Positions 6,080 through 64,000 of a DNA stretch of 64,000 nucleotides are shown here, in pieces. The DNA lies in the NCBI GenBank assembly GCA_016790705.1, contig JAEUOT010000067.1, forward strand, positions 79,758-143,757, in the 5' to 3' direction. Within the stretch, counting starts at the first letter, position 1; every line of letters starts with the position of its first letter. The DNA comes from Hydrogenophaga sp. (GTDB taxonomy: Bacteria > Pseudomonadota > Gammaproteobacteria > Burkholderiales > Burkholderiaceae_C). The translations under genes and the position numbers were made by a program. The notes beneath the pieces were generated by a model that saw only the letters and a list, made by a program, of their open reading frames with translations, was not told the origin of the DNA and searched no databases.

Positions 6080-6116
6080 GTGTGCGTCTTCCCTTCCTCG
6101 GCTGAGGGTTTCGGTT

Positions 6117-7271
6117 TCAAGGCAACGGAATCAGCAATTTGAAATCCGTGTGGCCTGGCGCGCTTTCACATTCGATCAGTCCGTGGTGCTGCTGCACAAA
6201 GGTCTGGGCAAGGGTCAACCCCAGCCCGGATCCACCCTCGCGCCCCGACACCAGCGGGAAAAAGATGCGGTCCTTGATCGACGCGGGCACGCCAGGCCCG
6301 TTGTCGATGACATGCAATTCCAGTGCCAGCCGGTAACGCTGTTTGCCGAAGGTCACCTGCCGGCTGACGCGGGTGCGCAAGGTGATCTGCGCATCGCCCG
6401 CCGCGATGCGCTCGGACAGCGCCTGTGCGGCGTTGTGGGCGATGTTCAGCACCGCCTGGATGAGTTGCTCCCGGTCGCCGCGAAACTCGGGAATCGAGGT
6501 GTCGTAGTCGCGCACGACCTTCAGGCCGCGAGGAAACTCGGCCACGATCAGCGCCCGGACCCGCTCACACACCTCGTGGATGTTCACATCCCCCACGACA
6601 TGGGGGCGACGGTGCGGTGCCAGCAGCCGGTCCACCAGCGACTGCAGGCGGTCGGCCTCGTGGATGATGACCTGGGTGTACTCGGTCAATTGCTTGTTGT
6701 CGAGTTCAAGCTCCAGCAACTGCGCCGCACCACGGATGCCCCCCAGCGGGTTCTTGATCTCGTGGGCCAGATTGCGGATCAGTTCCTTGTTGGCCTGCGC
6801 CTGGTCGATCAGACGTTCTTCCCGCTCCTGCCGCGTCTGTTGCTCAAGCGGCAACAGCTCAACGACCACTTCGCCTGCGGTCTCGGTCTGAGCGACCACC
6901 ACGTGGACCGGCAAGGGGTCGTGATTCAGGCGACGCAGCCAGGCGTCATAACGCAACGCCGCGAACTCGTTGACGCGTGCGCCGGTCAGGGCATTGACCA
7001 GCAACTGCGGCTCGGTGAAGCACTCCTGCAGCGGTGTTCCGCCGATGCTGCGGCGGGAAATGCCCAGCGCATCCTCCAGCGCCGCATTGGCAAACAGGAC
7101 CGTTCCGTCCGGCCCCACCACCGCCACCAGGGTGGCCAGCAGGTCCAGCGACTGAAACCGTGCGTGGGGCTCGGCCACCGTTGCCGGCACATCGGCAGCG
7201 GACCGTCTTTCGGTGCCGGGCGGCGCTGCGAAGGGTTGATCGCGTTTGGCCAAGCGCTTACTTCGCGACAC
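6117..7271 (-). CDS. ntrB: Nitrogen regulation sensor kinase NtrB
   Basis: NtrB is the cytosolic histidine kinase/phosphatase partner of NtrC, normally controlled by PII protein. From the chosen GTG start it has 384 residues: a PAS-type sensor region (about 40-140), the H-box NLAHEIKNPLGG with His170, N-box NIAHNAAQAL, then VIDNGPGVP and GGSGLGLTLAQ of the ATP-binding domain. No transmembrane segment is seen. The GTG at 7271 overlaps the end of the upstream gene by 14 nt with only a weak GGAAAG site. A TTG slightly downstream is an alternative, and the frame is open further upstream, so the start is uncertain. Confidence 0.92.
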   Translation of the reverse strand: MSRSKRLAKRDQPFAAPPGTERRSAADVPATVAEPHARFQSLDLLATLVAVVGPDGTVLFANAALEDALGISRRSIGGTPLQECFTEPQLLVNALTGARVNEFAALRYDAWLRRLNHDPLPVHVVVAQTETAGEVVVELLPLEQQTRQEREERLIDQAQANKELIRNLAHEIKNPLGGIRGAAQLLELELDNKQLTEYTQVIIHEADRLQSLVDRLLAPHRRPHVVGDVNIHEVCERVRALIVAEFPRGLKVVRDYDTSIPEFRGDREQLIQAVLNIAHNAAQALSERIAAGDAQITLRTRVSRQVTFGKQRYRLALELHVIDNGPGVPASIKDRIFFPLVSGREGGSGLGLTLAQTFVQQHHGLIECESAPGHTDFKLLIPLP

Positions 7272-7990: not shown

Positions 7991-9406
7991 TCACAGGCTG
8001 TAGTACATGTCGAATTCGACCGGGTGCGGAGCCATGCGGAAGCGGGTCACTTCGCCCATCTTCAGCTCGATGTAGGCGTCCAGCATCGAGTCGGTGAACA
8101 CGCCACCCTTGGTCAGGAAGGCGCGATCCTTGTCCAGGTACTCCAGCGCCTGGTCGAGGCTGTGGCAGACGGTCGGGACCAGCTTGTCCTCTTCCGGCGG
8201 CAGGTGGTACAGGTCCTTCGTGGCGGCTTCGCCCGGATGGATCTTGTTTTCCACGCCGTCCAGACCAGCCATCATCAGGGCCGAGAAGGCCAGGTACGGG
8301 TTGGCGGAAGGATCGGGGAAGCGCGCTTCGATACGACGGCCCTTCGGGTTGGCCACGTACGGGATGCGGATCGAGGCCGAGCGGTTGCGGGCCGAGTAGG
8401 CCAGCTTCACCGGGGCTTCGAAGCCGGGCACCAGACGCTTGTACGAGTTCGTGCCGGGGTTGGTGATGGCGTTCAGGGCACGGGCGTGCTTGATGATGCC
8501 GCCGATGTAGTACAGGGCGAAATCGCTCAGACCCGCGTAGCCGTCACCGGCGAACAGGTTCTTGCCGTCCTTCCAGATCGACTGGTGCACGTGCATGCCG
8601 GAACCGTTGTCGCCTTGGTAAGGCTTGGGCATGAAGGTGGCCGTCTTGCCGTAGGCGTTGGCCACGTTCCACACCACGTACTTCAGGACCTGGGTCCAGT
8701 CGGCGCGCTCGACCAGGGTCGAGAACTTGGTGCCGATTTCGTTCTGGCCGGCGCCCGCCACTTCATGGTGGAACACTTCGACCGGAATGCCCAGCGATTC
8801 GAGGATCAGGACCATCTCGGCGCGCATGTCCTGCGTGCTGTCGACCGGGGGAACCGGGAAGTAGCCGCCCTTGACCGTCGGACGGTGACCGCGGTTGCCG
8901 CCTTCGAGCTTGGCGCCGCTGTTCCAGGGGGCTTCGTATTCTTCGATTTCGCTGAACACGCGGCCGGGCTCGTTGCTCCAGCGCACGCCGTCGAAGATGA
9001 AGAACTCGGGTTCCGGACCGAAGTAGGCGGTGTCACCCAGGCCGGAAGCCTTCAGATAGGCTTCTGCGCGCTTGGCGATCGAACGCGGGTCGCGGTCGTA
9101 GGCCTTGCCGTCGCCCGGCTCAATCACGTCGCACTGCAGGAACAGCGTGGTTTCTTCAAAGAAGGGGTCGATGTTGGCGGTGCTGGGATCGGGCATGAGC
9201 TGCATGTCCGATGCTTCAATGCCCTTCCAGCCGGCGACCGACGAGCCGTCGAAGGCGTGGCCCGAGCTGAACTTGTCTTCGTCGAAGTGCGAAATCGGCA
9301 CGGTCACGTGCTGTTCCTTGCCCCGGGTGTCGGTGAAGCGGAAGTCAACGAACTTGACTTCGTTGTCCTTCACCATTTGCATCACGTCCGCGACGGTCTT
9401 GGCCAT
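7991..9406 (-). CDS. glnA: Glutamine synthetase, type I
   Basis: GlnA makes glutamine from glutamate, ammonia and ATP in the cytosol as a dodecamer. The 471-residue length is typical of GSI-beta. [12 protein letters not shown], the metal-binding block [23 protein letters not shown] and [17 protein letters not shown] are all present. The Tyr in [10 protein letters not shown], near residue 400, is the site modified by GlnE adenylylation in this subfamily, so post-translational control is expected. The ATG at 9406 has an AGGAG site 6 nt upstream. Transcription should depend on the sigma-54 promoter at 9459-9475 and the NtrC-like sites at 9603-9651. Confidence 0.98.
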
Positions 9407-9458
9407 CAAATACTCCTGTTGATGTGTGGGTGGAAAATGAAATTAGACGATGACTCGG

Positions 9459-9475
9459 AAGCAGTTTCTATGCCA
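9459..9475 (-). promoter_or_regulatory. Sigma-54 (-24/-12) promoter of glnA
   Basis: The minus strand reads TGGCATAGAAACTGCTT, with the invariant GG and GC separated by exactly 10 nt and close agreement with the TGGCAC-N5-TTGC consensus. The expected transcription start is about 12 nt further, near 9449, giving a leader of about 43 nt before the glnA ATG. Paired NtrC-like sites upstream support the call. Confidence 0.8.
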
Positions 9476-9602
9476 TCGGAAGCGTGGGGGGAACGCAAGC
9501 TGCACCCTGGCAGCAACAAACCCGTCGCGCATTATCACGCAGGCGAAAGCCCCCTCCCGGGGTCGGTTCCGCCATTTCATCGAACGATCGAGGACAGCGA
9601 CG

Positions 9603-9651
9603 GATGCATTAATTTGGTGCGCATTACGCAGATGCACCAAATTAATGCATC
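9603..9651. promoter_or_regulatory. Two NtrC-like sites forming an 18-bp inverted repeat
   Basis: Arms 9603-9620 (GATGCATTAATTTGGTGC) and 9634-9651 (GCACCAAATTAATGCATC) are perfect inverted copies separated by 13 nt. Each arm is itself close to the NtrC dyad TGCACC-N5-GGTGCA. The pair lies about 130-180 bp upstream of the glnA sigma-54 promoter, the usual enhancer distance, and begins just after the stop of the upstream gene. The block is AT-rich compared with its surroundings. Confidence 0.75.
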
Positions 9652-9654
9652 ACA

Positions 9655-10482
9655 TCAACGCACCATGACAGGGCCCAACTCGGCACGCTCTTGTCGCAGC
9701 CCCTCCAGCAGGGTGTCAAACGCCACCGATACGTCAGAGGGCGCGCCCTTGACGCCAAGCTCAATGTGGCGTCCGTACTCCGGGTGGTCGACGCTGGGCA
9801 GGCTGAAGACCTTGACCGGATGGTCGCGTTCAATGGCCTCCATAAGGGGCGTCAGGCTCGCCTCCATCGCCCCTTTGACCACCACGGAGCGTTCCTGCCA
9901 GGCATCTTTCGTGTGGAGATGCGCATAGTGGCTGTCCAGCAGGGACTCGATCATTGGCCAGGCCATCACCGGAAACCCAGGCACGAAATGCACGGTGCCA
10001 CCGCCGGGACCGTCGCAACTGAACCCGGGAATCTTGTTGTAGGGGTTGGTGATGATGCGTGCACCAGCCGGGAACACGCCCATGTTGAAGCGGTGCACGT
10101 TGTCGGGGCGCTCGGGGTCGTACCGTTCCCCGCGCTCAGTCGCCAGGTCCTTCATGCGTTCTTCGATCAGCGCCCTGGCATCGGGATGCAAAGCCAGTTC
10201 GACACCCAGCGCGGCTGCCGCGCACTGACGCGTATGGTCATCGGGCGTGGCCCCGATGCCACCGCAGCTGAACACGATATCGGGGCCATGGAAGGCCTCT
10301 CGCAACGCGGATGTGATGCGCTGTCGGTCATCGCCCACGCAATGGGCCCAGGACAGCGACAGGCCACGCGCGCCCAGCAGCTCGATAACCTTGGGCAAAT
10401 GCTTGTCGGCGCGTTTGCCCGACAGGATTTCGTCTCCGATGATGATCAGGCCAAAGGCGGGGCGGCCGGCTGTATTCGTCAT
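9655..10482 (-). CDS. Molybdopterin-binding domain protein (CinA N-terminal type)
   Basis: This 275-residue protein has a MoaB/Mog-like fold: AFGLIIIGDEILSGKRAD at the N-terminus, VFSCGGIGATPDDHTR as the substrate-binding Gly-Gly loop, and later NPYNKIPGF and VHFVPGFPVMAWPM. This is the arrangement of the N-terminal domain of CinA-type proteins without the C-terminal nicotinamide-nucleotide amidase domain. The family is annotated as competence/damage-inducible or nucleotide pyrophosphatase-like; the actual activity is not known here. The ATG at 10482 is preferred over upstream in-frame codons because homology begins there. The EI24 gene ends 8 nt upstream, so the two are probably co-transcribed. 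Confidence 0.82.
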   Translation of the reverse strand: MTNTAGRPAFGLIIIGDEILSGKRADKHLPKVIELLGARGLSLSWAHCVGDDRQRITSALREAFHGPDIVFSCGGIGATPDDHTRQCAAAALGVELALHPDARALIEERMKDLATERGERYDPERPDNVHRFNMGVFPAGARIITNPYNKIPGFSCDGPGGGTVHFVPGFPVMAWPMIESLLDSHYAHLHTKDAWQERSVVVKGAMEASLTPLMEAIERDHPVKVFSLPSVDHPEYGRHIELGVKGAPSDVSVAFDTLLEGLRQERAELGPVMVR

Positions 10483-51214: not shown

Positions 51215-51634
51215 GGGTTGTCTCCGGATTCGGGAAAGGTGAGCACAGCCCAAAAAGCAATAAGCAGGCCACTCGCCGGACCGTCCCGCAGCCGGCCCGT
51301 TTTCCAAAGACACGCCGGGTGTGACACCGCGCCGACTGTTCCAAATTGACGCAATGCCGTGCGACAGGCTGCCTCCGAAGGGACAGCCGCAGGGGGCAAC
51401 GGCGGGACAAGGCGATCCGGCGCCTCATGGCCGAAGAATTGCTATGTGTCGAAAGGAGGCAACTGCCACGCAATGTTTCATCGGGGGATTTCCTCTGTTG
51501 ATTCGTGGCACAGATGTGAAGACAATCCCATGACCCGAGACGATCAAAACCAGCCCGCTGTTCAGTCTGGCCAGCAAGAGCCGATATGGACGATGGATTA
51601 CTGGGGTGGACTTCCCCCGGACCCAGGAGACAAC
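51215..51634. promoter_or_regulatory. Divergent control region of pedF and the AcoR-like activator
   Basis: This 420-nt gap holds the pedF sigma-54 promoter, the perfect dyad GGTGTGACACC at 51318-51328 about 50 nt upstream of it, and an AGGAG site at 51625-51629 for the activator start. Two ATG/GTG-type starts in frame with the activator lie inside the gap (for example 51530), so part may be translated. No other gene is seen. Confidence 0.55.
51255..51271 (-). promoter_or_regulatory. Sigma-54 promoter of pedF
   Basis: The minus strand reads TGGCCTGCTTATTGCTT: GG and GC are exactly 10 nt apart and the TTGCTT end is perfect. The transcription start would be about 51245, leaving a leader of about 31 nt. 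The gene for a sigma-54 activator is divergent, so it is the obvious regulator. Confidence 0.72.
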
Positions 51635-53704
51635 ATGAGTGCCGCCACGTACACGCCCTCCGGCGGGGAGCGTGCCGACATCCCTTCCACCGTCGGCAGT
51701 CCAGACGGCCGTGATGCCATCAACCAGTCGCATCAGCGCTCGCGCGCCTACGGCATCACCGAACAGTCGGAGCCGGACTTCTCCAGCCCGCTGCGTGGCG
51801 ACCTGACCAGCGCGCTCGACGAGAACCGCTTCCTGTTCCAGCACGCGGCGCCGGTCATGGAGACGCTCTACGACCAGATCGCCAACACCCACAGCATGGT
51901 GCTGCTGACCTCGTCCAAGGGCATGGTGCTGCACTCGCTGGGCGATTCCGATTTCCTGGAAAAGGCCTCGCGCGTGGCGCTGATGCCCGGCATGGACTGG
52001 TCCGAGAAGACCAAGGGCACCAACGCTATCGGCACCGCACTGACCGAAGAGGAGGCGCTGACCGTCCACGGCAACCAGCACTTCATGAACGCGAACAAGT
52101 TCCTGACCTGTTCGTGCTCGCCCATCTTCGATCCCTACGGACAGGTGATCGGCGCGCTGGACGTGACCGGCGACCAGCGCAGCTTCCACCAGCACACGCT
52201 GGCACTGGTGCGCATGTCGGCACAGATGATCGAGAACCACATGTTCGCCGACATCTTCCCCAAGGCGATCCGGGTCCACTTCCACACCCGCTCCGAGTTC
52301 CTCGGCACCCTGGTCGAAGGCATCGCTGTGTTCTCGCCCGAGGGCCGCTTCATCTCGGCCAATCGCAGCGCGCAGTTCCAGATCGGCCTGCCGTTCGCCG
52401 CGCTCAAGGCCCACACGTTCTCCTCGCTGTTCGGCATTCCGATCTCCTCGCTGATCGACCTGTTCAGCGGCACCCTGCCGACTCCCAAGCAACTGGTGCT
52501 GCACAACGGCGTCGCGGTCTGGTGCCGGGTCAAGGTCAAGTCCGCCAACCCCTGGTCGGCAGGACACGGGTCCGCGCCGGTCAGCCCGCTGCAGGCCGAG
52601 GAAAGGGCCTCGACCGCGCCCGCGCCGGCCGCAGCGCCGCTGGCGACACGCCCCCCTGTGCGGCGGCCGCACCTCTCGACCCTGCAGTACCTGGACACCG
52701 GCGACCCGCAGGTCTCGGCAGTGATCCACAAGCTGCGCATGGTCTCGGGCAAGGACATCCCGGTGATGATCCTGGGCGAAACCGGCACCGGCAAGGACCT
52801 GCTGGCGCAGGCCATCCACGGCGACTCCAACCGCTCGGGCCAGCCCTTCGTCTCCGTCAACTGCGCCTCGATCCCTGACACGCTGATCGAGTCGGAGCTG
52901 TTCGGCTACGAGGAAGGCGCCTTCACCGGCGCGCGCAAGAAGGGCTCGATCGGCAAGATCCTGCAGGCCAACGGCGGCACGCTGTTCCTCGACGAAATCG
53001 GCGACATGCCCAAGCACCTGCAGGCGCGGCTGCTGCGCGTGCTGCAGGAGCGGCGCGTCAGCCCGCTGGGCGCGGGCAAGGAAGTCGATGTCGACGTCGC
53101 CATCGTCAGCGCCACCCACAAGAACCTCAAGGACATGATCGCGCGCGGCGACTTCCGCGAAGACCTCTACTACCGCCTCAACGGCCTGGTGGTGCGGCTG
53201 CCGGCGCTGCGCGAGCGCACCGACTTCGACCTGGTGGTGCAGAAGATCGTCAAGTCCCTGTGCGAGAACGGCCAGCACATCGGAATCTCGCCGCGCGTGA
53301 TGGACATCTTCAAGCGCTACCACTGGCCAGGCAACTTCCGCCAGTTGCACAACCTGCTGCGCACCGCGGTGGTCATGGTCGGCTGCGCCGGCGTGATCGA
53401 CATGGAACACCTGCCGGACGATTTCCTGGAAGAGCTGGAGCACGGCCTGCCGCACCCGATGGCGTTGCGACTGGGACAGCCGCTGCAGACGGTCGAGGAA
53501 ACCCTGCCTGAAATGCCCAGCGCCCCGCCGATGCCCGAACCGCCGGTCGACGGCCAGAAGCTGCAGGACGTCGCGCTCAGCGCGATGGCACAGATGCTCC
53601 GGCTGCACAAGGGCAACGTGTCGGCGGCGGCGAAGGCGCTGGGCGTCTCTCGAAACACCATCTACCGCAAGAAGAACCTGCTGCCGCCCGACGCGCTGGG
53701 CTGA
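51635..53704 (+). CDS. AcoR-like sigma-54-dependent activator
   Basis: The 689-residue protein (from the ATG at 51635, with AGGAG 5 nt before it; an ATG at 51530 is possible) has a GAF domain (TKGTNAIGTALTEEEALTVH and CSCSPIFDPYGQVIGALDVT), a PAS-like region (about 230-310), then an AAA+ domain with Walker A LGETGTGKDLLAQAI, the sigma-54 loop EEGAFTGARKKG, Walker B FLDEIGDMPKH, and a Fis helix-turn-helix (AAKALGVSRNTIYRKKN). It lies between pedF and the other PQQ genes, so it probably activates alcohol-oxidation genes in response to an alcohol or aldehyde sensed by the GAF domain. Confidence 0.92.
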   Translation: MSAATYTPSGGERADIPSTVGSPDGRDAINQSHQRSRAYGITEQSEPDFSSPLRGDLTSALDENRFLFQHAAPVMETLYDQIANTHSMVLLTSSKGMVLHSLGDSDFLEKASRVALMPGMDWSEKTKGTNAIGTALTEEEALTVHGNQHFMNANKFLTCSCSPIFDPYGQVIGALDVTGDQRSFHQHTLALVRMSAQMIENHMFADIFPKAIRVHFHTRSEFLGTLVEGIAVFSPEGRFISANRSAQFQIGLPFAALKAHTFSSLFGIPISSLIDLFSGTLPTPKQLVLHNGVAVWCRVKVKSANPWSAGHGSAPVSPLQAEERASTAPAPAAAPLATRPPVRRPHLSTLQYLDTGDPQVSAVIHKLRMVSGKDIPVMILGETGTGKDLLAQAIHGDSNRSGQPFVSVNCASIPDTLIESELFGYEEGAFTGARKKGSIGKILQANGGTLFLDEIGDMPKHLQARLLRVLQERRVSPLGAGKEVDVDVAIVSATHKNLKDMIARGDFREDLYYRLNGLVVRLPALRERTDFDLVVQKIVKSLCENGQHIGISPRVMDIFKRYHWPGNFRQLHNLLRTAVVMVGCAGVIDMEHLPDDFLEELEHGLPHPMALRLGQPLQTVEETLPEMPSAPPMPEPPVDGQKLQDVALSAMAQMLRLHKGNVSAAAKALGVSRNTIYRKKNLLPPDALG

Positions 53705-53710
53705 CGCGGC

Positions 53711-54718
53711 TCATCGGGGCGCAGCGCCCTGGTCCATCCAGACCGGCTCCAGCTCGCGCCAGGCACGCTGCACATTGAAGCCGTGGCGCGTGCCGTAACC
53801 GGCCCAGGACGCGAACGCCGGCAGATCCACCTGACCGGCCTCATGCGCCTGGACGCCACGGTCCATCGCCGCCAGCACCCCGGCGCTCAGCCCCTTGAGG
53901 TAATCGCGCGTGGCGCCCAGCGCGGGCGGTGGCGCCGCGCCGGACGACGACGACCAGGTGGCGGCGATCAGGTGGCGCGGGCGCAGCCGCTCCAGCCGAT
54001 CCAGCGCCTCCAGCCAGCCCTGCACCTGTCCCTGCGCCAGCTCGGGCACCCGGTCCTGGTACGCCAGTCCACCGGCCCACAGCACACGCCGCCGCGCGTC
54101 CCACAGCACCAGGTCGCCGTCGGTGTGCCCGTGTTCCAGCGGCATCACGCGCAGCGCGATCCGCCCCACCCGCAACACATCGCCCTCGGCCAGGGTGTGC
54201 GTGGGCAACACGATCTCGGTGCCGGCCATGGCCGGCTGGCCCACCCGCCGCACCAGGCTCGCCAGGCAGTCCGGGCAACGCTGCGCCATGCCTTCGCGCG
54301 TCGGCGCACTGGCCAGCAGCGCGATCCGGCCCGCCGCGATGTCGTCGGCAAACGCCGCGTTGGCCAGCACGTTCTCGGCATGGGCGTGGGTGTTGACGAT
54401 CCAGCGCACGCGCGCCCCGAAGCGGCACGCCAGCGACCGGCGCAGCCGCAGGCCGTGCCGGTAACTCGGTCCCGGGTCGATCACACCGGCCTCGCGACCC
54501 GCGATCACCACGCTCACCGGCATCACGTGCCCGCCATTGGACGGCGCCACCTCGCCCCCGTCCGGCGGCAGCCAGACCCACACCCCCGGCACCACCGCGC
54601 GCCAGGGGATGGCGTCCGCCGCAGCACAGCGCGGTGCCGCCGCCACCGGGGCCGCCCACCACAGCCCGGCCAGCAGGCTCACCGCGATCCACCAGACCCT
54701 GCGCAGCCCGCCGCTCAT
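53711..54718 (-). CDS. Metallo-beta-lactamase-fold quinoprotein relay protein
   Basis: The 335-residue exported protein has a signal peptide (WWIAVSLLAGLWWAAPVAA) and an MBL fold: VVIAGREAGVIDPGPSYRHG, RWIVNTHAHAENVLANAAF and LEHGHTDGDLVLWD. The metal motif is HAHAEN rather than HxHxDH, and the usual late GHG motif is replaced by IAATWSSSSG, so some metal ligands are missing. Proteins of this kind occur beside PQQ alcohol dehydrogenases and are called quinoprotein relay zinc metallohydrolases. The function is unproven. It is coupled to the next gene by a 4-nt overlap and runs convergent to the activator gene. Confidence 0.8.
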   Translation of the reverse strand: MSGGLRRVWWIAVSLLAGLWWAAPVAAAPRCAAADAIPWRAVVPGVWVWLPPDGGEVAPSNGGHVMPVSVVIAGREAGVIDPGPSYRHGLRLRRSLACRFGARVRWIVNTHAHAENVLANAAFADDIAAGRIALLASAPTREGMAQRCPDCLASLVRRVGQPAMAGTEIVLPTHTLAEGDVLRVGRIALRVMPLEHGHTDGDLVLWDARRRVLWAGGLAYQDRVPELAQGQVQGWLEALDRLERLRPRHLIAATWSSSSGAAPPPALGATRDYLKGLSAGVLAAMDRGVQAHEAGQVDLPAFASWAGYGTRHGFNVQRAWRELEPVWMDQGAAPR

Positions 54719-55770
54719 GCGCCCGCCCTCACACGATCCCGCAGCGCCGCCAGCGTGGCCGGCTCATGCCCGAGATGCCCCGCGCCGGTCAAGCTCAGCG
54801 AGACCCGGTCGGGCGCGATGCGCGCGCCCATTGCCGCCCAGCGCCGGCTGTTGCGCGGCGGGCAGACCGCATCGTGCCGCCCGTGCACCCAGTCGACGCG
54901 AATGCCCTGGTGCGCCAGCGACATCACCGCGCGGTCCAGCGCGCCCGGTCGCAGGAAACCGCGATGCGCGAGGTAATGCCGCTGGATGCGCAGCCGGTCC
55001 AGCAGCCTGCGGTCGGCCACGCCGGGGCGCCTGGTTGCCTCGGCGGCAAGCCGCCGTTCGCGGCGCCGCTGCAGACCCCAGGCCTGGCGAAGCGGCGGCG
55101 CTGGCCGCGACGCATGCAGCCAGGCTTTCCACATGCCGTGTGCCGCCGCGCGCGATTCGCACAGCGCCCAGCGACGCGCCGCGCGCAGACCTGCAACAGA
55201 CGGTGTTCCGCCTTGGAACAATTGGCGCAGACGTGCCAGCAACGCCGGCATCGGCACCCCGCCCGACTGCGGCCACAACAGGCCCGCAACACTCAGGGTT
55301 TGCCCGTAGCCCTGGCCCCGCAACAGCCCCGCGATCTCGCGCTGCGTCAGCGCAAAAGCGCCGCGCAACACCAGCCGATCCACCCGCGTCGGGTGGGCCC
55401 GGGCATAGGCCAGCGCCAGCACGCTGCCCCAGGACCCCGCCAGCACCGACCAGCGCGCCAGCCCCAGCCGCTCCCGCAGTTGCTCCAGATCCCTCACCAG
55501 TGCCGCCGTGTGATTGCGCTGTGTCGCACCGCGCGGCCGGCTCTCGCCACAGCCGCGCTGGTCCGGCGCGATCGCACGGTGTCGCGCAAGGTCCAGCGGC
55601 GCCATCAGCCCCGGGTTCGCCCCGCTGCCCGGCCCCCCGTGCAACAGCAGCCAGGGCTCGCCCTGCGGGTTTCCCCCCAGATGCCAGGCCATGGCATGCG
55701 GCGCGCCCACACCGATGCGCCGCTGGGTCCGCCAGCGGGTCTGGTTCGTGGCATCGATATTGCTTTTCAT
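54715..55770 (-). CDS. Alpha/beta hydrolase, prolyl aminopeptidase-like
   Basis: The 351-residue hydrolase has the proline iminopeptidase pattern: WLLLHGGPGSGANPGLMAPL (oxyanion HGGPG), RAIAPDQRGCGESRPRGAT, nucleophile elbow LAGSWGSVLALAYARAHP, and a His near the C-terminus in LTGAGHLGHEPA. An arginine-rich cap domain lies in the middle. No signal peptide is seen, so it is probably cytosolic. It lies divergent to pqqA. One attractive idea is that it trims peptides from the PqqA precursor, a step done by PqqF/PqqG proteases elsewhere; neither is seen in this window. That is inference only. Confidence 0.82.
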   Translation of the reverse strand: MKSNIDATNQTRWRTQRRIGVGAPHAMAWHLGGNPQGEPWLLLHGGPGSGANPGLMAPLDLARHRAIAPDQRGCGESRPRGATQRNHTAALVRDLEQLRERLGLARWSVLAGSWGSVLALAYARAHPTRVDRLVLRGAFALTQREIAGLLRGQGYGQTLSVAGLLWPQSGGVPMPALLARLRQLFQGGTPSVAGLRAARRWALCESRAAAHGMWKAWLHASRPAPPLRQAWGLQRRRERRLAAEATRRPGVADRRLLDRLRIQRHYLAHRGFLRPGALDRAVMSLAHQGIRVDWVHGRHDAVCPPRNSRRWAAMGARIAPDRVSLSLTGAGHLGHEPATLAALRDRVRAGA

Positions 55771-55849
55771 GGTGGCGATCCGGACTGCGGTGGCGCAGAC
55801 GGATCGGCAGCAGTCACGATTCATGCCAACCTTATCTGGAGACAAGACC

Positions 55850-55924
55850 ATGCAGTGGACCACCCCCGCCTTCACCGACCTGCGCTTCGGTTTCGAAATC
55901 ACGATGTACATCGCCAACCGCTGA
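55850..55924 (+). CDS. pqqA: PQQ precursor peptide PqqA
   Basis: PqqA is the 24-residue substrate peptide from which PQQ is built. Glu16 and Tyr20 lie in GFEITMYIANR with the required three-residue spacing; PqqE crosslinks them. The ATG at 55850 has GGAGAC 8 nt upstream. The whole divergent gap to the hydrolase gene is only 79 nt, so the promoter must lie within it. A hairpin with T-run follows at 55945. Confidence 0.97.
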   Translation: MQWTTPAFTDLRFGFEITMYIANR

Positions 55925-55988: not shown

Positions 55989-56906
55989 ATGCGCATCCGT
56001 GTTCTCGGCTCCTCTGCCGGTGGCGGCTTCCCTCAGTGGAACTGCAACTGCCCCAACTGTGACGGTCTGCGCCGCGGGACACTGACCGCGCGGGCCCGCA
56101 CCCAGTCATCGATTGCGATCAGCGACAACGGCCAGGACTGGCTGCTGGTCAACGCCTCGCCCGACATCCTCACCCAGATCCGCGACAACCCGGAGCTGCA
56201 ACCGGCCCGCGCCATCCGCGACAGCGGCATCGCCGCCGTGCTGCTGATGGACGCGCAGATCGACCACGTCACAGGCCTGCTGATGCTGCGCGAGCGCAAG
56301 ACGCCGCTGCCGCTGCTGGCCACGCCCGAGGTCTTCTCCGACATCGGCTCCGGCTTCCCGATCACCGGCATCCTCTCGCACTACTGCGGCACCGCGCAGC
56401 AGGCGCTGCCCATCGACGGCAGCGCGGTGCACATCGCCGCCCTGCCCGGCCTGCAACTGCAGACGGTCTCGCTGTCGTCCAAGCCGCCGCCGTATTCGCC
56501 GTTCCGCGGCAACCCGCGGCCGGGCGACAACATCGGCCTGCTGATCACCAACCCGGCCACCGGCGCGCAGGCCTTCTATGCGCCCGGCCTGGCCGAAGTC
56601 AGCGCCGAGCTGATCGACCTCATGCGCGGCTGTGCCGTGGTGCTGGTCGACGGCACCTTCTGGACCCACGACGAGATGCAGCGCCTGGGCCTCTCGCCCA
56701 AGGCCGCGCTCGACATGGGCCACCTGCCGCAAAGCGGCCCCGGCGGCATGATCGAGCAGCTCGACCGCCTCCCCGGCGGCGTGCGCAAGGTCCTCATCCA
56801 CATCAACAACACCAACCCCATGCTGGTGGAGGACTCGCCCGAGCGCGCGCTGCTGACGCAGCACGGCATCGAGGTCGCCTTCGACGGCATGGACATTTCT
56901 TTCTGA
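55989..56906 (+). CDS. pqqB: PQQ biosynthesis protein PqqB
   Basis: The 305-residue protein has the metallo-beta-lactamase fold of Pqq[21 protein letters not shown] with CPNC as the structural zinc Cys cluster, [17 protein letters not shown] with the metal His/Asp, and FDGMDISF at the end. PqqB acts as an iron-dependent hydroxylase on the tyrosine of the crosslinked dipeptide. It starts 64 nt after pqqA, past the hairpin. Confidence 0.96.
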
Positions 56907-56913
56907 GTGCGCC

Positions 56914-57645
56914 ATGGAGATCGCCCGCCACCCCCGCCCCCACGAAGGACTGCCCGCCTGGAGCGCCGAGGAGTTCGAGGCCCAGTTGCGCGACAAGGGC
57001 CGCAGTTACCACATCCACCACCCGTTCAATGTGCGCATGAACTCAGGTGGCTGCACGCCCGACGAAATCCGCTGCTGGGTCGCCAACCGCTTCTACTACC
57101 AGATCTGCATCCCGCGCAAAGACGCCGCGATCCTGGCCAACATGCCCGACCGCGAACACCGCCGCCTGTGGGTCGAGCGCATCCTCGACCACGACGGCCA
57201 CGGCGACCACCAGGGCTCGGCCGCCGGCGGCATCGAGGCCTGGACGCGGCTGGGCGAGGCGGTGGGCATCTCGCGCGAAGCGCTGTGGTCGCTGGAGCAC
57301 GTGGTGCCTGCGGTGCGATTCGCCTGCGACGCCTATGTGCACTTCGCGGCCACCGCGCCCTGGCAGGAAGCGGTGTGCTCGTCGCTCACCGAGATGTTCG
57401 CGCCGCAGATCCACAAGGACCGTCTCGCGACCTGGCCGACGCACTACCCGTGGATCGAGGCCGGCGGCCTGACCTATTTCCGCAGCCGCATCCCGCTCGC
57501 CAGCCGCGACGTCGAACACGGCCTGCGCGTGACCCAGGACCACTTCCGGTCCCGCGAGCAGCAGCACCGCGCACTGGACATCCTGCAGTTCAAGCTGGAC
57601 ATCCTCTGGACCATGCTGGATGCCATTGAAAAAGCCTGCCAATGA
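56914..57645 (+). CDS. pqqC: Pyrroloquinoline-quinone synthase PqqC
   Basis: PqqC carries out the last step, an eight-electron oxidation and ring closure that needs no metal. The 243-residue helical protein has [40 protein letters not shown] and [20 protein letters not shown], the conserved active-site stretches. It overlaps pqqD by 4 nt. Confidence 0.97.
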
Positions 57646-57905
57646 GCGCCCTGCCGAACCAACCCAAGCTCTCGCGCAAGTTCCGCCTGCAGTTCGAGCC
57701 GGCGCAGGACCGCTGGGTCCTGCTGTACCCCGAGGGCATGGTGCAGCTCAACCCGAGCGCCGCCGAGATTCTCAAGCGCTGCGACGGCGAGCGCACGGTC
57801 GACGCCATCGTCGCCGAGCTGGAAGCCGCGTTCAACGCCCAGGGCATCGCGCCCGAAGTCCGCAACCTGCTGGAAGAGGGCCAACGCCGTGGCTGGATCG
57901 ACTGA
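57642..57905 (+). CDS. pqqD: PQQ biosynthesis chaperone PqqD
   Basis: PqqD binds PqqA and presents it to PqqE. The 87-residue protein begins with [20 protein letters not shown] and has [35 protein letters not shown] and a C-terminal RRGWID. It is a separate polypeptide here, but its last 17 nt overlap pqqE, the closest coupling in the operon. Confidence 0.96.
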
Positions 57906-59040
57906 TCTCCTGAGCGCGACACCCATCCCCGCCGGGCCGCCGCTGTGGCTGCTGGCGGAGCTGACCTACCAGTGTCCTCTGCACTGCGTCTTTTGCTACA
58001 ACCCGACGCAGCACGCCAAGGTCACCGATGAACTGAGCACGGCGCAGTGGGTCGACGTGATGACGCAGGCGCGCAAGCTCGGCGCCGCACAGCTCGGCTT
58101 CTCCGGCGGTGAGCCGCTGCTGCGCGACGACCTGGAAGAGCTGGTGCAGGAAGCCCACCGTCTGGGCTACTACACCAACCTGATCACCTCGGGCGTGGGC
58201 CTGACACCGGCGCGGGCGCAACGCCTGAAGGACGCGGGGCTGGACCACGTGCAGCTCTCGTTCCAGGACTCAACCCGCGAACTCAACGACTTCCTCAGCC
58301 ACACCAAGACCTTCGACCTCAAGCAGCGCGTCGCCAGACTGATCAAGCAGCACGACTGGCCGATGGTGATGAACTGCGTGCTGCACCGGCACAACCTGCC
58401 GCACGTGCGCAAGATCATCGACATGGCGGTGGCGCTGGAGGCCGAGTACCTCGAACTGGCCAACACGCAGTACTACGGCTGGGCCTGGGTCAACCGCGAC
58501 CACCTGATGCCCACGCGCGAAGAACTGGCCGTGGCCGAGGCCGAGGTCAACGCCTTTCGCGCGGAGCAGGCGGCGAAGACCGACGGCCACACCTGCCGCG
58601 TGCTGTTCGTCGTGCCCGACTACTTCGAGGAACGCCCCAAGGCCTGCATGAACGGCTGGGGCGCCGTCTTCCTGTCGATCGCGCCGGACGGTCTGGCCAT
58701 GCCCTGCCACAACGCCCGCGACCTGCCCGGTCTGGCGCTGCCCAACGTGAAGGACATGCCGATTGCCGACATCTGGCAGCGTAGCAACGCCTTCAACACC
58801 TACCGCGGCGACGCGTGGATGAAACCGACCTGCCGCAGTTGCGACGACCGGCACAAGGACTTCGGCGGCTGCCGCTGCCAGGCCTTTCTGCTCACCGGCG
58901 ACGCGGCCGAGACCGACCCCGTGTGCAGCAAGTCGGCCCACCACGAGAAGGTGGTCGCGGTGGTGCGTGATGCGCCCAAACGCCGGAACATCCCGATCGT
59001 GTTCCGCAGCGACGCTGAATCGCGGATATTGCATCCATGA
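57889..59040 (+). CDS. pqqE: PqqA peptide cyclase PqqE
   Basis: PqqE is the radical SAM enzyme that forms the Glu-Tyr carbon-carbon bond in PqqA. The 383 residues have the cluster motif ELTYQCPLHCVFCYNPTQHA (C-x3-C-x2-C), FSGGEPLLRDDLEELVQEAH, and a C-terminal SPASM region rich in Cys (PTCRSCDDRHKDFGGCRCQA). The GTG at 57889 lies within pqqD. Its stop overlaps the next gene (ATGA), so the operon continues beyond the known PQQ genes. Confidence 0.96.
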   Translation: MAGSTDLLSATPIPAGPPLWLLAELTYQCPLHCVFCYNPTQHAKVTDELSTAQWVDVMTQARKLGAAQLGFSGGEPLLRDDLEELVQEAHRLGYYTNLITSGVGLTPARAQRLKDAGLDHVQLSFQDSTRELNDFLSHTKTFDLKQRVARLIKQHDWPMVMNCVLHRHNLPHVRKIIDMAVALEAEYLELANTQYYGWAWVNRDHLMPTREELAVAEAEVNAFRAEQAAKTDGHTCRVLFVVPDYFEERPKACMNGWGAVFLSIAPDGLAMPCHNARDLPGLALPNVKDMPIADIWQRSNAFNTYRGDAWMKPTCRSCDDRHKDFGGCRCQAFLLTGDAAETDPVCSKSAHHEKVVAVVRDAPKRRNIPIVFRSDAESRILHP

Positions 59041-59777
59041 GCACCAGCAGCGCCCCCAACCACCGCATGTTCGGTGCCCTGCTGGCGCGCCGGGTGCCGG
59101 GTGCGAACCGTCCGTCCATGAATCTGGAGCGCGCCGAGCACGGACTGTTCCTGCTCTGGCTGGCCTTCATGGGTCTGCTGCTGTTTGCCTCCTGGCTGCT
59201 GTGGAAGGCGGGCGCCTGGCACCGGCTGATCGACGCTGACCCGACCCACCTCACTGTCGCCATCGTGCTGCTGTTCATCGGTTGCTCGCTCTGGACCGGC
59301 CAGCGCGCCTGGGTGCTCGGCCTGGAGCGCCAGCGGCTGGACAGTGGCCACATCGGCGACGGCAGCTGGTGCGGTCAATTTTTGCAAGGCACGCGGCAGC
59401 CCGGCGCCGACCGCGGCTCCTGGCTGCAGGTGCTGGGCGAGCAGGCACACGGCCCGCACGAGATGGCCTGGTGGCTCAACGGCATCCAACTCAAACTCGG
59501 CCTGCTGGGCAAGGTCATCGGCTTCTCCATCCTGGCCCTCCAGCTGGGCCAGATGGACAGCTTCGACCCGAGCCAGAGCGCGCAGCTGCTCAAGAGCCTG
59601 ACCGGTGGCCTGGGCATCGCGCTGCTGACCACCGTCACCGGGCTGACCGGCAACATCCTGCTGGGCCTGCAGCTGATGCGGCTGGACCGGTTTGCCGATG
59701 CGCTGGTGGCCGACGCACTGGCGCTCTCGCTCAAGCACACGGAGCCTGGACATGGCGATCGGCCGACCGGTCCGTGA
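59037..59777 (+). CDS. MotA/TolQ/ExbB-like membrane protein, pqq-linked
   Basis: The 246-residue protein has about four hydrophobic helices (LFLLWLAFMGLLLFASWLLW, LTVAIVLLFIGCSLW, LLGKVIGFSILALQL and a pair-like stretch, LTGGLGIALLTTVTGLTGNI). The last region, with MRLDRFADALVADAL after it, resembles the channel helices of MotA/TolQ/ExbB proton-channel proteins. It overlaps pqqE by 4 nt and the next gene by 26 nt, which is strong evidence of one operon. A proton-driven motor complex with the downstream single-span protein is a plausible reading, but the channel assignment rests on the last helices only. Confidence 0.6.
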   Translation: MSTSSAPNHRMFGALLARRVPGANRPSMNLERAEHGLFLLWLAFMGLLLFASWLLWKAGAWHRLIDADPTHLTVAIVLLFIGCSLWTGQRAWVLGLERQRLDSGHIGDGSWCGQFLQGTRQPGADRGSWLQVLGEQAHGPHEMAWWLNGIQLKLGLLGKVIGFSILALQLGQMDSFDPSQSAQLLKSLTGGLGIALLTTVTGLTGNILLGLQLMRLDRFADALVADALALSLKHTEPGHGDRPTGP

Positions 59778-60363
59778 CACGGAGGCCGACCCGTTCTACG
59801 ACATGTTGTTCAACATGTTGATCGCGTTCGTCTTCTGTTTCGTCATCGCCATCCTCGCCTTCAACCCGCGTGCCCGCAAAGCGGGTGACGTGCCGGCCAA
59901 GGCCGAGTTCATGGTCACCGTCTCCTGGCCCGACAACAACCCCAACGACATCGACACCTGGGTGCTCGAACCGGGCGGCAAGACGCTCTGGTTCCGCCAG
60001 CGCGACGCCGGCCTGCTGCACCTGGACCGCGACGACCGCGGCGCCAAGAACAACAGCGTGATCGTCAACGGCCGAGAGCTCTCCAGCCCGATCCGCCAGG
60101 AGATCGTGACCCTGCGCGGCATCGTGCCCGGCGAGTACGTGGTGAACGCGCACTACTACGACAGCCGCGACCAGCAGCCGGTCGATGTGTCGGTGGCGGT
60201 GGTCAAGGTCAACCCGCAGGCCGAGATCATCTACACCGGCACCCAGCAGATCCCGCGCAAGGGCGATGAGCGCACCCTGGTGCGCTTCACCATCGACGAA
60301 AGCGGCCGGGTGCTGGACCTGAGCACGAATCCGAAGACCATCGTCCAGCGCACGGGACTGTGA
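59752..60363 (+). CDS. Membrane-anchored DUF2135-like protein, ExbD-like layout
   Basis: The 203-residue protein has one N-terminal helix (DMLFNMLIAFVFCFVIAILA) preceded by a short charged cytoplasmic segment with an Asp (DPFYDMLFN), the layout of ExbD/TolR/MotB subunits. The periplasmic part (about 45-200) has WPDNNPNDIDTWVLEPGGKT, WFRQRDAGLLHLDRDDRGAK and IVPGEYVVNAHYYDSRDQQP, resembling the DUF2135/YfaP beta-sandwich. It overlaps the upstream MotA/TolQ-like gene by 26 nt. Function is unknown. Confidence 0.6.
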   Translation: MAIGRPVRDTEADPFYDMLFNMLIAFVFCFVIAILAFNPRARKAGDVPAKAEFMVTVSWPDNNPNDIDTWVLEPGGKTLWFRQRDAGLLHLDRDDRGAKNNSVIVNGRELSSPIRQEIVTLRGIVPGEYVVNAHYYDSRDQQPVDVSVAVVKVNPQAEIIYTGTQQIPRKGDERTLVRFTIDESGRVLDLSTNPKTIVQRTGL

Positions 60364-60394
60364 AACACCCACTGCGCCACTTCACACCGACCCC

Positions 60395-60919
60395 ATGATC
60401 CCTGCCGTCTCCTCCCAACTGCTGCTGCTCGCGATCGTCTACGCGCTGCTGGCCTTCCTGCTGCTGGTGCTCTGTCTGGGCACCCGCTGGCGCTGGAGCC
60501 TGAAGGTCGTGCTGGTGTTGCTGGTCAGCGGCTTCTACCTGTTCTCCTACGAATCGCTGCGCGGCATGTCCGGCTGGCCCGCCGACGACGAACTGCCGCG
60601 CAAGTTCATCCTGCTCTCGGCGGTGTTCGACGAACCCAGCCCCGGGCGCGGACACCCCGGCGCGATCTACCTCTGGGTGCATCCGATGAAGGACAACCAG
60701 CCGCTGGAGATGCCGCGCCAGTTCAAGCTGCCTTACGAGAAGGACCTGCACCGCATCCTCGGCGACGGCATCAAGAAGGCGCGCGACGGCAACACCCAGC
60801 TCGGCGAGACCGAGCCCCGGCGCGGCCAGGGCGGGCTGGCCTGGCTGAGGCCGGCGGCCAACGACAAGGTCGAGATCAAGCTGCGCGACCTGCCGCGCGC
60901 ACAACTTCCGGAGAAATGA
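60395..60919 (+). CDS. Small membrane protein of unknown function, pqq-linked
   Basis: This gene is not recognised. The 174-residue protein has two N-terminal helices (SQLLLLAIVYALLAFLLLVL and LKVVLVLLVSGFYLF) and a soluble domain of about 120 residues that begins GMSGWPADDELPRKFILLSA and includes GAIYLWVHPMKDNQPLEMPR. The domain ends with charged, Arg/Glu-rich sequence. It starts 31 nt after the DUF2135-like gene and overlaps the lipoprotein gene by 4 nt. Confidence 0.6.
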   Translation: MIPAVSSQLLLLAIVYALLAFLLLVLCLGTRWRWSLKVVLVLLVSGFYLFSYESLRGMSGWPADDELPRKFILLSAVFDEPSPGRGHPGAIYLWVHPMKDNQPLEMPRQFKLPYEKDLHRILGDGIKKARDGNTQLGETEPRRGQGGLAWLRPAANDKVEIKLRDLPRAQLPEK

Positions 60920-61611
60920 TGCGCCGCCATCTGCCCTCCCTGCTTGCGATCCTGATGCTCAGCGGCTGTGGCGGTCGCGACCTGGGCAACGAATGGTTCC
61001 CGCTGCGCGAAGGCACGTCGCAGACACTGGACGTGCGCTACGCGATGGACGAGCCGCGCGAGCCCGAACAATGGACGATGGAGGTCATGGCGCCCGCCAC
61101 GATCAAGGACCAGACCCTGGCGGTGCGCCACCACTCCGCCGGCGTCAGCTACTACCTGCTGGCCGACGACAAGGGCGTGCGCCGCGTGGCCACGCGCACC
61201 GACATCGACCGAGACCCGACCCCCGACGCCGAACCGCTGTGGGTGCTCAAGGCGCCCTACCAGGTCGGCACCGAATGGGTCACGCCGACCGTGCCCTACC
61301 TGCTGCAGCGCAAGAACGAATACCCGCGCGACCTGAAGTACTCGCACAAGGTGCTGATGACCTGGCGCATCGAGGCCGTCGACGACAGCGTCAAACTGGC
61401 CGACGGCAACGAGCACAAGCCCTGCCTGCGCGTGCTCGGTCTGGCCAAGCTCAACCTCTACACCGATCCGGTCAACGGCTTCAATGAGGTGCCCCTGACC
61501 AGCCGCGAGTGGTATTGCAAGGGCGAGGGACTGGTGAAGCTCGAACGCGAGGAGAAGGTCCCGGCCGGCTTCATCACCGGCGGCAGGATGACCGCCGAGT
61601 GGCAACCCTGA
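60916..61611 (+). CDS. Lipoprotein of unknown function, pqq-linked
   Basis: This gene is not recognised. The 231-residue product has a lipobox (LLAILMLSGCGG, Cys18 or 19) and a beta-rich mature domain with GNEWFPLREGTSQTLDVRYA, APYQVGTEWVTPTVPYLL and LTSREWYCKGEGLVKLEREE. It contains conserved-looking Trp/Tyr residues but no enzyme motif. It starts with ATG-ATG overlapping the upstream stop; GGAG precedes it. It is the last gene of the pqq-linked four-gene block. Confidence 0.65.
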   Translation: MMRRHLPSLLAILMLSGCGGRDLGNEWFPLREGTSQTLDVRYAMDEPREPEQWTMEVMAPATIKDQTLAVRHHSAGVSYYLLADDKGVRRVATRTDIDRDPTPDAEPLWVLKAPYQVGTEWVTPTVPYLLQRKNEYPRDLKYSHKVLMTWRIEAVDDSVKLADGNEHKPCLRVLGLAKLNLYTDPVNGFNEVPLTSREWYCKGEGLVKLEREEKVPAGFITGGRMTAEWQP

Positions 61612-62431: not shown

Positions 62432-62997
62432 CATTCGATCCGCAACTCCCGGATCCAGCGCGCGCCGGGGGCGAAGTCGTCGCGCTCCATCGGCCCGTAG
62501 GGCGGCTGGCTCAGGTCGTCCGGCGGCGAGCCGATGCGGTTGAGGTCGATGGCCTGGGGTGTGCCGACCAGCGCGCCGCCGGTCTGTGCGAACTTGAAGA
62601 TGATGCCGTTCCAGAGCTTGGCGCCGAAGTCGGCCGGCAGCTTGTAGAAGAACATCAGGTTGTGCTCCAGCCAGGCCCAGTCACCGGCCGAGACGGTGGC
62701 CGGGTTGGCGTAGGGATAGGGGACGAAACAACTGACCTCCTGGGCGGCGGGCAGGCACTTGAACTCCCGCATCGACAGGAAGTGGTCCTTCATGACCGCG
62801 TGGTCCATCTGCACGCGGAAGGTGGCCTTGCCGCCCGCGGCCGGACGGAAGGTGACCGCACCGATGCGCGTGCGCTGCCCGTCGCGCGTGACGGCGACGA
62901 GCGATTTCTCGCCGTCGGGCAGCGCCGGCTGGGCGGCGGCTGCGCCAACGAGCGCCCAGACGAACAGCCCTGTCAGGGCTTGATGGACAGCACCCAT
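62431..62997 (-). CDS. Exported protein of unknown function in the PQQ dehydrogenase cluster
   Basis: This gene is not recognised. The 188-residue product has a signal peptide (LTGLFVWALVGAAAAQ), then a beta-rich domain with AVTRDGQRTRIGAVTFRPAA, a His/Met segment MDHAVMKDHFLSMREFKCLP, a second Cys in VSCFVPYPYA, and DWAWLEHNLMFFYKLPADFG. The His/Met-rich stretch could bind a metal or haem, but this is a guess. The ATG at 62997 lies 25 nt inside the end of the upstream cytochrome gene, so the two are translated together. Confidence 0.6.
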   Translation of the reverse strand: MGAVHQALTGLFVWALVGAAAAQPALPDGEKSLVAVTRDGQRTRIGAVTFRPAAGGKATFRVQMDHAVMKDHFLSMREFKCLPAAQEVSCFVPYPYANPATVSAGDWAWLEHNLMFFYKLPADFGAKLWNGIIFKFAQTGGALVGTPQAIDLNRIGSPPDDLSQPPYGPMERDDFAPGARWIRELRIE

Positions 62998-63296
62998 TGG
63001 GCCAGCGTCTTGATGTCGGCGGCGCTCATGCTCGGATGCGGCGGCATCGGAATGCGGCCCCACTTGCCCTTGCTGCCGTACTGGATCGACTGCACAAGAC
63101 CGGCCACGGCGTCCTTGTCGTCCTTGTACTTCTCGGCCACCGAGGCGTAGGCGGGTCCGACGACCTTTTCCTTGGGCGAATGGCAGGACAGGCAACCGTT
63201 GTTCTTGGCCAGTTCCAGGGCGGCGGCTTCGTCAACAGCGTGGGCAGAACCCGCCGCAAGCAGCAGGCCGGAAGTGAGGATCAGGAAAGTACGCAT
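62973..63296 (-). CDS. Class I cytochrome c
   Basis: The 107-residue exported protein has a signal peptide (MRTFLILTSGLLLAAGSAHA), one haem site (NNGCLSCHSPKEKVVGPAYA) and axial Met candidates in RIPMPPHPSMSAADIKTLAQ. This is the c-551/c-552 type. It would accept electrons from the PQQ dehydrogenase encoded upstream. A terminator hairpin and a palindromic repeat separate it from that gene. Confidence 0.92.
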   Translation of the reverse strand: MRTFLILTSGLLLAAGSAHAVDEAAALELAKNNGCLSCHSPKEKVVGPAYASVAEKYKDDKDAVAGLVQSIQYGSKGKWGRIPMPPHPSMSAADIKTLAQWVLSIKP

Positions 63297-63460: not shown

Positions 63461-64000
63461 TTACTTGGCCAGCTTGAAGGTCCAGACGGAACCGCCCTGT
63501 TCGAGGAAGTTCACGCGCTTGGCCACTTCGCCGCCCCACAGCGGAACCGCACCACCCCAGCCGGAGACGACGGAGATGTACTGCTCGCCATCCTGCTTCC
63601 AGGTGATCGGAGGCGCGACGATGCCGGAGCCGGTCTGGAACTTCCAGACGATCTTGCCGGTCTTGGCGTCTGCGGCCTGCAGGTAGCCCTCAGGCGTGCC
63701 CCAGAACACCAGGTCGCCGGCCGTCAGCACACCACCCCACAGCGGCGCGTTGTTCTTGACTTCCCAGACGATCTTGCCGGTCTTCGGATCGACCGCGCGC
63801 ATCGCGCCGATGTAGTCCTCGTTCAGCGGCTTGATGGTGAAGCCAGCGCCCAGGTAGGCAGCGCCCTTCTTGTAGGTGATGGGCTCGTTCCAGATCTCCA
63901 TGCCCCACTCGTTGGAGGGCACGTAGAACAGGCCGGTCTTCGGGCTGTAGGCCATCGGCATCTGGTTCTTGCCGCCCAGGAAGCCCGGCGCGGAGAACAC
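63461..64000 (-). CDS. exaA: PQQ-dependent ethanol dehydrogenase, ExaA type (partial, C-terminus)
   Basis: Only the C-terminal 179 residues are inside the window; the gene continues past 64000. The stretch contains the beta-propeller tryptophan-docking features of quinoprotein alcohol dehydrogenases: [80 protein letters not shown] and [19 protein letters not shown]. The sequence follows ExaA-type ethanol dehydrogenase more closely than MxaF. The active-site and metal residues that separate calcium from lanthanide enzymes are not visible. It has no extra cytochrome domain at its C-terminus, consistent with separate c cytochromes nearby. Confidence 0.9.

Follow-up and report, generated by a model that had tools for sequence, protein, structure and literature searches.

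The 64,000-nucleotide (nt) stretch of Hydrogenophaga sp. DNA analysed here (assembly GCA_016790705.1, contig JAEUOT010000067.1, positions 79,758 to 143,757; the whole stretch is referred to as the window) carries a block of four genes at the end of a pyrroloquinoline quinone (PQQ) synthesis operon, pqqABCDE, and this block probably codes for a motor of the 5:2 type, the kind represented by ExbBD, TolQR, and MotAB. If it is such a motor, the chance that its job is cofactor supply is about even, and the complete reading, a dedicated 5:2-type motor that drives a trans-envelope step of cofactor supply, is put forward tentatively, at somewhat less than even odds. Its direct basis consists of homology, conserved residues, gene order, and genomic context, from which we infer ion flow, rotation, stoichiometry, substrate, and direction. 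The four genes, all on the + strand and with lengths in amino acids (aa), are as follows.

59037 to 59777, +: gene 1, a MotA/TolQ/ExbB-like putative ring subunit with four predicted membrane helices (246 aa)
59752 to 60363, +: gene 2, a putative MotB/ExbD-like partner with a single helix, Asp17, and a periplasmic beta domain of DUF2135 type (203 aa)
60395 to 60919, +: gene 3, a protein of unknown family that has two helices and ends in a conserved LPEK (174 aa)
60916 to 61611, +: gene 4, a predicted lipoprotein with a confident all-beta model (231 aa)

The original prediction, made from the sequence alone, had described a four-gene block overlapping the end of pqqE, and open reading frames (ORFs) are present at those coordinates. 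The ATG of gene 1 lies inside the pqqE stop codon, a 4-nt overlap; genes 1 and 2 overlap by 26 nt, genes 2 and 3 are separated by 31 nt, and genes 3 and 4 overlap by 4 nt. Hydropathy gives four, one, two, and zero strong membrane segments for genes 1 to 4, respectively. A promoter and terminator scan returned signals no commoner than in shuffled sequence.

Gene 1 is a predicted distant homologue of MotA, TolQ, and ExbB, and the homology is well supported by profile comparison. Aligned by hhalign with 26 ExbB/TolQ proteins, the gene 1 family gives 92.7% (E 4e-7, score 53.2, 178 columns), compared with scores of at most 17.7 for four controls run with the same profile (genes 2, 3, and 4 and ExbD), and its GLLGKVIGF and GIALLTT stretches fall on the ExbB channel helices, as judged by the residues that we take to form the ExbB channel. 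The Pfam model PF01618 (MotA/TolQ/ExbB) scores 15.0 bits on the window protein alone, below its cut-off of 22.9, and, with E up to 1 allowed, matches all 45 aligned gene 1 rows (best E 1.8e-8). Relatives that pass the cut-off include those from the block of genome G003 (35.4 bits), from locus L119 of bacterial family f88 (32.9 bits), and from the phage loci L186 and L218 (35.3 and 34.1 bits), with phage locus L267 below it at 20.1 bits. The two lines of comparison agree with the MotA/TolQ-like protein that had been proposed. Searched against solved structures, gene 1 gave no phmmer matches, and its profile matched 6m6z (E 4e-6), 6u1s (E 0.085), and ExbB (E 0.24); 6m6z and 6u1s are designed membrane proteins and are taken as composition matches rather than relatives.

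Gene 2 is predicted to be the one-helix partner, with an aspartate at a channel-type place and a DUF2135-type head, not an ExbD/TolR domain. Asp17 is present in the helix of 84 of 84 sequences (the window, the 80 loci described below, and L013 to L015), and it aligns on the ExbD aspartate in the hhalign comparison. The periplasmic part aligns with DUF2135 (PF09906), including a DxD...RD core, at 97.4% (E 1e-11, score 75.7; controls at most 12.6); the Pfam model itself, at an E limit of 1, matches 15 of 39 rows (best E 0.012) but not the window protein, and Pfam finds no periplasmic domain of ExbD/TolR type or OmpA type in gene 2. The one helix and the hhalign match thus support the single-span protein with a DUF2135-like periplasmic domain that was first described. 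An AlphaFold model contains a helix at residues 14 to 37 and a beta-rich domain, with a mean predicted local distance difference test score (pLDDT) of 83.3. The head also has an invariant group of aspartates, which may point to binding of La or Ca. A fold search with this model gave no Protein Data Bank match at E 0.001 or better and nine matches at that level among the BFVD viral models (best E 1.2e-5; template-modeling [TM] score to the query 0.33 to 0.52), of which those with names are uncharacterised phage proteins or a BACON-domain protein; phmmer of gene 2 against solved structures gave nothing better than E 0.81. The profile comparisons used ORFs from 26 of 30 ExbD loci, 26 of 30 ExbB loci, and 5 of 7 DUF2135 loci, and the non-redundant alignment subsets have 39 or 38, 45, 36, and 52 rows.

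Gene 3 ends in LPEK in 80 of 84 sequences and in LPGK in the other 4, and domain, family, and PADLOC model searches gave no convincing family match for it. The lipobox Cys18 of gene 4 is invariant in 52 aligned rows, and the lipobox pattern is present in 72 of 82 sequences; the sorting of such lipoproteins follows the +2 rule. The gene 4 model is all-beta (mean pLDDT 95.3) and matches 4fvs and 3fzx, Bacteroidales proteins described as a putative lipoprotein and an exported protein, at E 1e-4 to 4e-4 with a TM of 0.36, which is a poor superposition; LprG is matched weakly (E 0.01). This remote YmcC-like or LprG-type likeness of the model is only a hint of a ligand-binding lipoprotein fold. The profiles of genes 2 to 4 match nothing convincing among solved structures (best E 0.46, 2.8, and 1), and PHROGs matches were no better than E 0.003.

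Among 84,980 species genomes, a pattern scan identified 406 stretches coding for gene 2 relatives, and the counts given here use the best 80, which are mostly from Burkholderiales and of which 49 exceed 20 kb. The same order of the four genes is seen in 79 of the 80 loci (gene 4 was not found in L028), and the gene 1/gene 2 junction is between -26 and +15 nt in all 82 loci measured, out of 83 in total with one, on the other strand, left out; the order is conserved more than expected by chance. Queries for the neighbourhood were taken from the window and from L012, L014, L059, L062, and L083. AcoR, MxaJ, histidine kinase (HK), LuxR, and second TonB receptor are our own labels, MxaJ without NCBIfam backing. 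At least 1 of 12 quinoprotein markers lies within 10 kb of the block in 78 of the 80 loci and at least 2 in 72, compared with 0 of 20 control loci, which surround other MotA_ExbB-family genes in four genomes. Restricting the set to the nine best-named markers (leaving aside MxaJ, PqqU-like, and PqqB-like) gives counts of 78 and 68, respectively; the two loci that have no marker, L061 and L066, are Polynucleobacter fragments of ∼13 kb.

The gene directly upstream, on the same strand and within 400 nt, is pqqE in 26 of the 80 loci, pedC in 17, pqqB or a pqqB-like gene in 14, a regulator in 3, and a propeller gene in 1. The remaining 19 have a zinc hydrolase gene divergently upstream (14), have their nearest marker far away (4), or are cut off (1). 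Where pqqE precedes gene 1 the two overlap by 4 nt in 16 of 26 cases and lie 1 to 8 nt apart in the other 10; pedC and gene 1 overlap or are separated by at most 11 nt in 16 of 17, with the start taken as the one nearest the homologous start. These neighbourhoods are those of the PedA1A2BC/Lut clusters, with PedC, an ATPase, a binding protein, a beta-propeller protein, PedF, and a WD[YF]DG dehydrogenase. In example loci PedC (TIGR03861) and the ATPase (TIGR03864) are over their NCBIfam cut-offs, the binding protein (TIGR03863) and the PqqU-like receptor are below theirs, and further names are the propeller protein (TIGR03866), the cytochrome PedF (TIGR04494), and the dehydrogenase (TIGR03075). 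The aspartate in a WDYDG motif marks lanthanide use; among the 49 loci in which the metal motif is readable, 47 have WD[YF]DG and 2 (L063 and L082) have the serine form. Genes for TonB receptors are near the block in 17 of 80 loci for the PqqU-like type and in 22 for the second type.

PedC is also associated with the block at the level of genomes. Of 398 genomes in the phylum, 55 have PedC over its cut-off. A strong match to the block (E under 1e-60, which excludes 3 weaker genomes) occurs in 14, and 13 of these are among the 55; the 14 represent only two families and so cannot be counted as independent cases. The sole strong-block genome without PedC is that of the window, where the contig breaks off next to the cluster. 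In genome G264 and in most f88 genomes PedC and the block are far apart.

The window is the end of its contig, in a genome that is 85% complete, and the features around the block are as follows.

51359 to 53704, +: sigma-54-type regulator, AcoR-like by eye, with a relative in 65 of the 80 block loci
53711 to 54718, -: zinc metallohydrolase like TIGR04558/TIGR04559 (quinoprotein relay system), below both cut-offs
55850 to 55924, +: pqqA-like 24-aa peptide, found by eye in the ORF list, with no search made
55989 to 56906, +: pqqB, named from sequence and position
56914 to 57645, +: pqqC (TIGR02111)
57642 to 57905, +: pqqD (TIGR03859)
57889 to 59040, +: pqqE (TIGR02109, 507.9 bits)
62973 to 63296, -: small cytochrome c (CxxCH), by eye
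63461 to 64000, -: PQQ-dependent alcohol dehydrogenase, C-terminal 179 aa, by eye

The dehydrogenase is cut by the contig end, and its metal motif lies outside the window. A proline-iminopeptidase-like hydrolase, identified by eye at positions 54715 to 55917 on the - strand, adjoins pqqA and might be a candidate processor of the PqqA peptide.

Unexpectedly, T4-like phages and Rhizobium phages also carry the core, genes 1 to 3, as a cassette. Relatives of gene 2, up to 45% identical, occur in 136 IMG/VR contig stretches, of which 80, together with 2 found by a prophage-type query and 6 named phages, make up a set of 88 viral loci (L184 to L271). A gene 1 relative lies directly upstream in 84 of the 88, a gene 3 relative directly downstream in 74, and both in 73 (profile matches at E under 1e-3); among the six named phages, four have the gene 1 match and two the gene 3 match. 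A T4-type Gp23 capsid gene is present in 9 of 17 tested viral contigs (17 of 82 viral loci were tested). Gene 2 is matched by 27 of 50,697 records of named phages, some of them duplicates, and all are Rhizobium or Sinorhizobium phages, including 16-3 (gene p040) and P10VF (gene 192). ClpS-like genes are close to the core in 9 of the 88 viral loci and SbmA/BacA-like genes in 9, and in some loci they follow it. A 99-row tree of gene 2 places the cellular sequences (Burkholderiales, G003, and f88) on one side of a branch with support 97/94, and most viral rows form a neighbouring group with weak support (90/35).

Gene 2 relatives are further present in ten genomes of another class (family f88), which we guess to be Bradyrhizobium-like, and the three-gene core is found in all eight f88 loci scanned. 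In L114 genes for PedC and PedA and for SoxYZ-like, SoxH-like, and MoxJ-like proteins lie within 10 kb of the core, and the other seven loci instead have a nearby HK/LuxR pair. NCBIfam assigns the HK and LuxR genes next to the core in f88 and Limnohabitans to general UhpB/NarL types, so orthology is not claimed. In L118 and L119 the core is followed by genes for a metallophosphoesterase and a Ser/Thr kinase and faces the HK/LuxR pair. More distant gene 2 relatives occur on Azospirillum plasmids, in genomes G010 and G399, and in a prophage-like region of G487; in Azospirillum and G010 a MotA-like gene lies next to them. The Azospirillum plasmids (L009 and L010; seven records) have two places per record with such relatives. 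The G487 region (L122, positions 8111 to 10102), with an endolysin and a trypsin-like protease identified by eye, contains the core, its genes 1 and 3 likewise identified by eye.

In the motor reading, gene 1 would form the ring and gene 2 the axle, the Asp17 of its helix would carry the ion, and its DUF2135-type head would be turned or pulled in the periplasm; gene 3 would be a membrane partner, and gene 4, as a lipoprotein that is probably in the outer membrane, would take up the movement. The motor in this lineage would be wired to the cluster of a (mostly lanthanide-type) PQQ alcohol dehydrogenase, and the trans-envelope step would most likely supply lanthanide, PQQ, or chelates of these to the periplasm, to the PedABC importer, and to the dehydrogenase. 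The combination of a ring protein, an axle with an aspartate, a periplasmic head, and a lipoprotein is consistent with an ion-driven motor working on the periplasm or outer membrane, and the genomic context fits a step in supplying lanthanide or PQQ to the dehydrogenase, lanthanide supply being as likely as PQQ supply. We see only an outside chance that MotA, MotB(DUF2135), and gene 3 constitute a separate family of ion-driven envelope motors common to lanthanide-type clusters and T4-like phages, which would be a TonB-independent puller of lanthanide or PQQ in bacteria and would power an unknown envelope step in phages.

Several observations weigh against a motor for cofactor supply. The profile comparison of the first two proteins with proton-channel families that was originally proposed gives MotA/ExbB for gene 1, but the hhalign similarity of gene 2 to ExbD/TolR is only weak (probability 7%, score 24.9; controls 12.6 to 16.9). 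All 83 readable Burkholderiales-type ring proteins (from 84 loci) have lysine at a ring-motif position that is mostly threonine in other groups, the motif being unreadable in 61 viral proteins and 1 Rhizobium-phage protein. Asp17 is replaced by valine in all eight f88 axle proteins (L114 to L120 and L123), with the rest of the protein conserved, so at least that branch cannot use residue 17, and PQQ-cluster genes are absent from seven of the eight scanned f88 loci within up to ∼9 kb on each side (∼1 kb on one side of L120). The four window proteins contain no TonB domain at E up to 10, and the same genome has four ExbD-family genes and six other MotA_ExbB-family genes. The 80 loci are related to each other, and the counts drawn from them are not counts of independent cases; moreover, the block is accessory, because PedC is present in 42 of the 384 genomes lacking a strong block match. 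Quinoprotein markers are found in 0 of 80 viral loci, and since phages carry the core without them, its basic function may have nothing to do with cofactors.

What the block loci have in common is not PQQ synthesis. The original prediction had tied the block to pqqABCDE, for example through PQQ export, and this part does not hold up across the relatives: pqqC/D/E are near the block in 27 of 80 loci, compared with quinoprotein genes in 78, and the other 53 loci are without them in the available stretch, some being cut by contig ends. In Limnohabitans genome G234, which is listed as 100% complete, both the block and a gene for a PqqU-like receptor (below cut-off) are present but pqqC is not matched; PQQ export is therefore too narrow as the main role. 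The expectation that the block keeps to pqq genes stands only in part, as it often occurs apart from the synthesis genes, whereas across these 80 loci it keeps to the neighbourhood of PQQ-enzyme genes. Among order-level genomes with a strong block match five of six have pqqC, so that block and pqqC are often together, and the translational coupling to pqqE in the window and its relatives favours export or loading of PQQ linked to its synthesis; given the loci without pqqC/D/E and genome G234, we nevertheless regard such a role as very unlikely. A diverged PqqB-like protein (TIGR02108, 143.7 bits against a cut-off of 245; L062, positions 5420 to 6316, and similar) is encoded upstream of the block in loci without pqqC/D/E.

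A role in maturation, in which the motor acts on the periplasmic dehydrogenase or cytochrome, for example in inserting PQQ or metal together with MoxJ-like and SoxH/SoxYZ-like proteins, is unlikely, though it has some genomic context in its favour. A zinc hydrolase gene is present in 50 of the 80 loci and a periplasmic binding protein labelled MxaJ-like in 51 (by NCBIfam the query weakly matches amino-acid-binding families, not MoxJ), and the L114 core is ∼3 to 5 kb from its SoxYZ-like, SoxH-like, and MoxJ-like genes, all of which are over cut-offs. In the four proteins, however, no domain was found that would point to the dehydrogenase, and a 2026 review of the ped cluster covers maturation genes without such a block in its available passages (PMC12997753). 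The lipoprotein partner and TolQ-like ring, and the carriage of the core by phages, would also suit a Tol-like motor for envelope maintenance, kept because alcohol and aldehyde oxidation stresses the envelope; this is doubtful, as the neighbourhood follows quinoprotein clusters and the genome already has other Ton/Tol-family genes. That phages so commonly carry the core, in T4-like contigs and in Rhizobium phages, together with the weak similarity of gene 1 to ZorA (E 0.017 and 0.071), raises the idea of a phage-derived or anti-phage module, Zorya-like or acting in superinfection exclusion, that was captured by a quinoprotein cluster. We consider this improbable: PADLOC searches at E up to 10 return nothing for genes 2 to 4 (the neighbours were not scanned for ZorC/D), the cellular gene 2 proteins lie on a branch apart from the viral ones, and 78 of 80 loci are in metabolic clusters.

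Among known systems, ExbB-ExbD(-TonB) and TolQ-TolR(-TolA) resemble the block in ring homology by profile and in a one-helix partner with an aspartate at the same place, but the block has a DUF2135-type head, no TonB domain, and lysine for the usual ring threonine. It shares with the MotAB and PomAB stators the four predicted helices of the ring protein and the single-helix axle, although searches of gene 2 showed no peptidoglycan domain of OmpA type. The ZorAB proteins of Zorya are likewise a MotA-like and MotB-like pair; membership of the block's pair in Zorya was rejected, gene 1 having only the weak ZorA matches and gene 2 none, with its neighbours not scanned by PADLOC.

PedA1A2BC is needed for growth of P. 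putida at nanomolar La3+ (PMC6839425), and the TonB receptor LutH is needed for La3+-dependent growth of M. extorquens lacking mxaF (PMC7391723); outer-membrane passage of lanthanides in P. putida KT2440 is called unresolved in the 2026 ped cluster review (PMC12997753). The available passages of these three accounts of PedA1A2BC/Lut lanthanide uptake do not mention the four-gene block, and passages of lanthanide papers searched for ExbB, MotA, and TolQ contain no account of it. In Methylomicrobium alcaliphilum two MotA/TolQ/ExbB genes, which may or may not belong to the gene 1 family, are reported to be lowered with the Ca-type dehydrogenase in a Ca-La comparison (PMC6277846). A 2025 survey of MotAB homologues describes, in its accessible text, ion transporters of a generic kind that carry extra domains of unknown function, and the word DUF2135 is absent there (PMC12505986). 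Among the matches listed for the open-access PMC literature there is no prior account of the block in quinoprotein clusters or phages.

If the motor reading is correct, the block adds to the ExbBD/TolQR/MotAB kind a motor with a new periplasmic head, the core of which phages carry as a cassette. Its position beside a lanthanide-type importer and dehydrogenase would make this putative motor a deletable and testable gene set in other bacteria.

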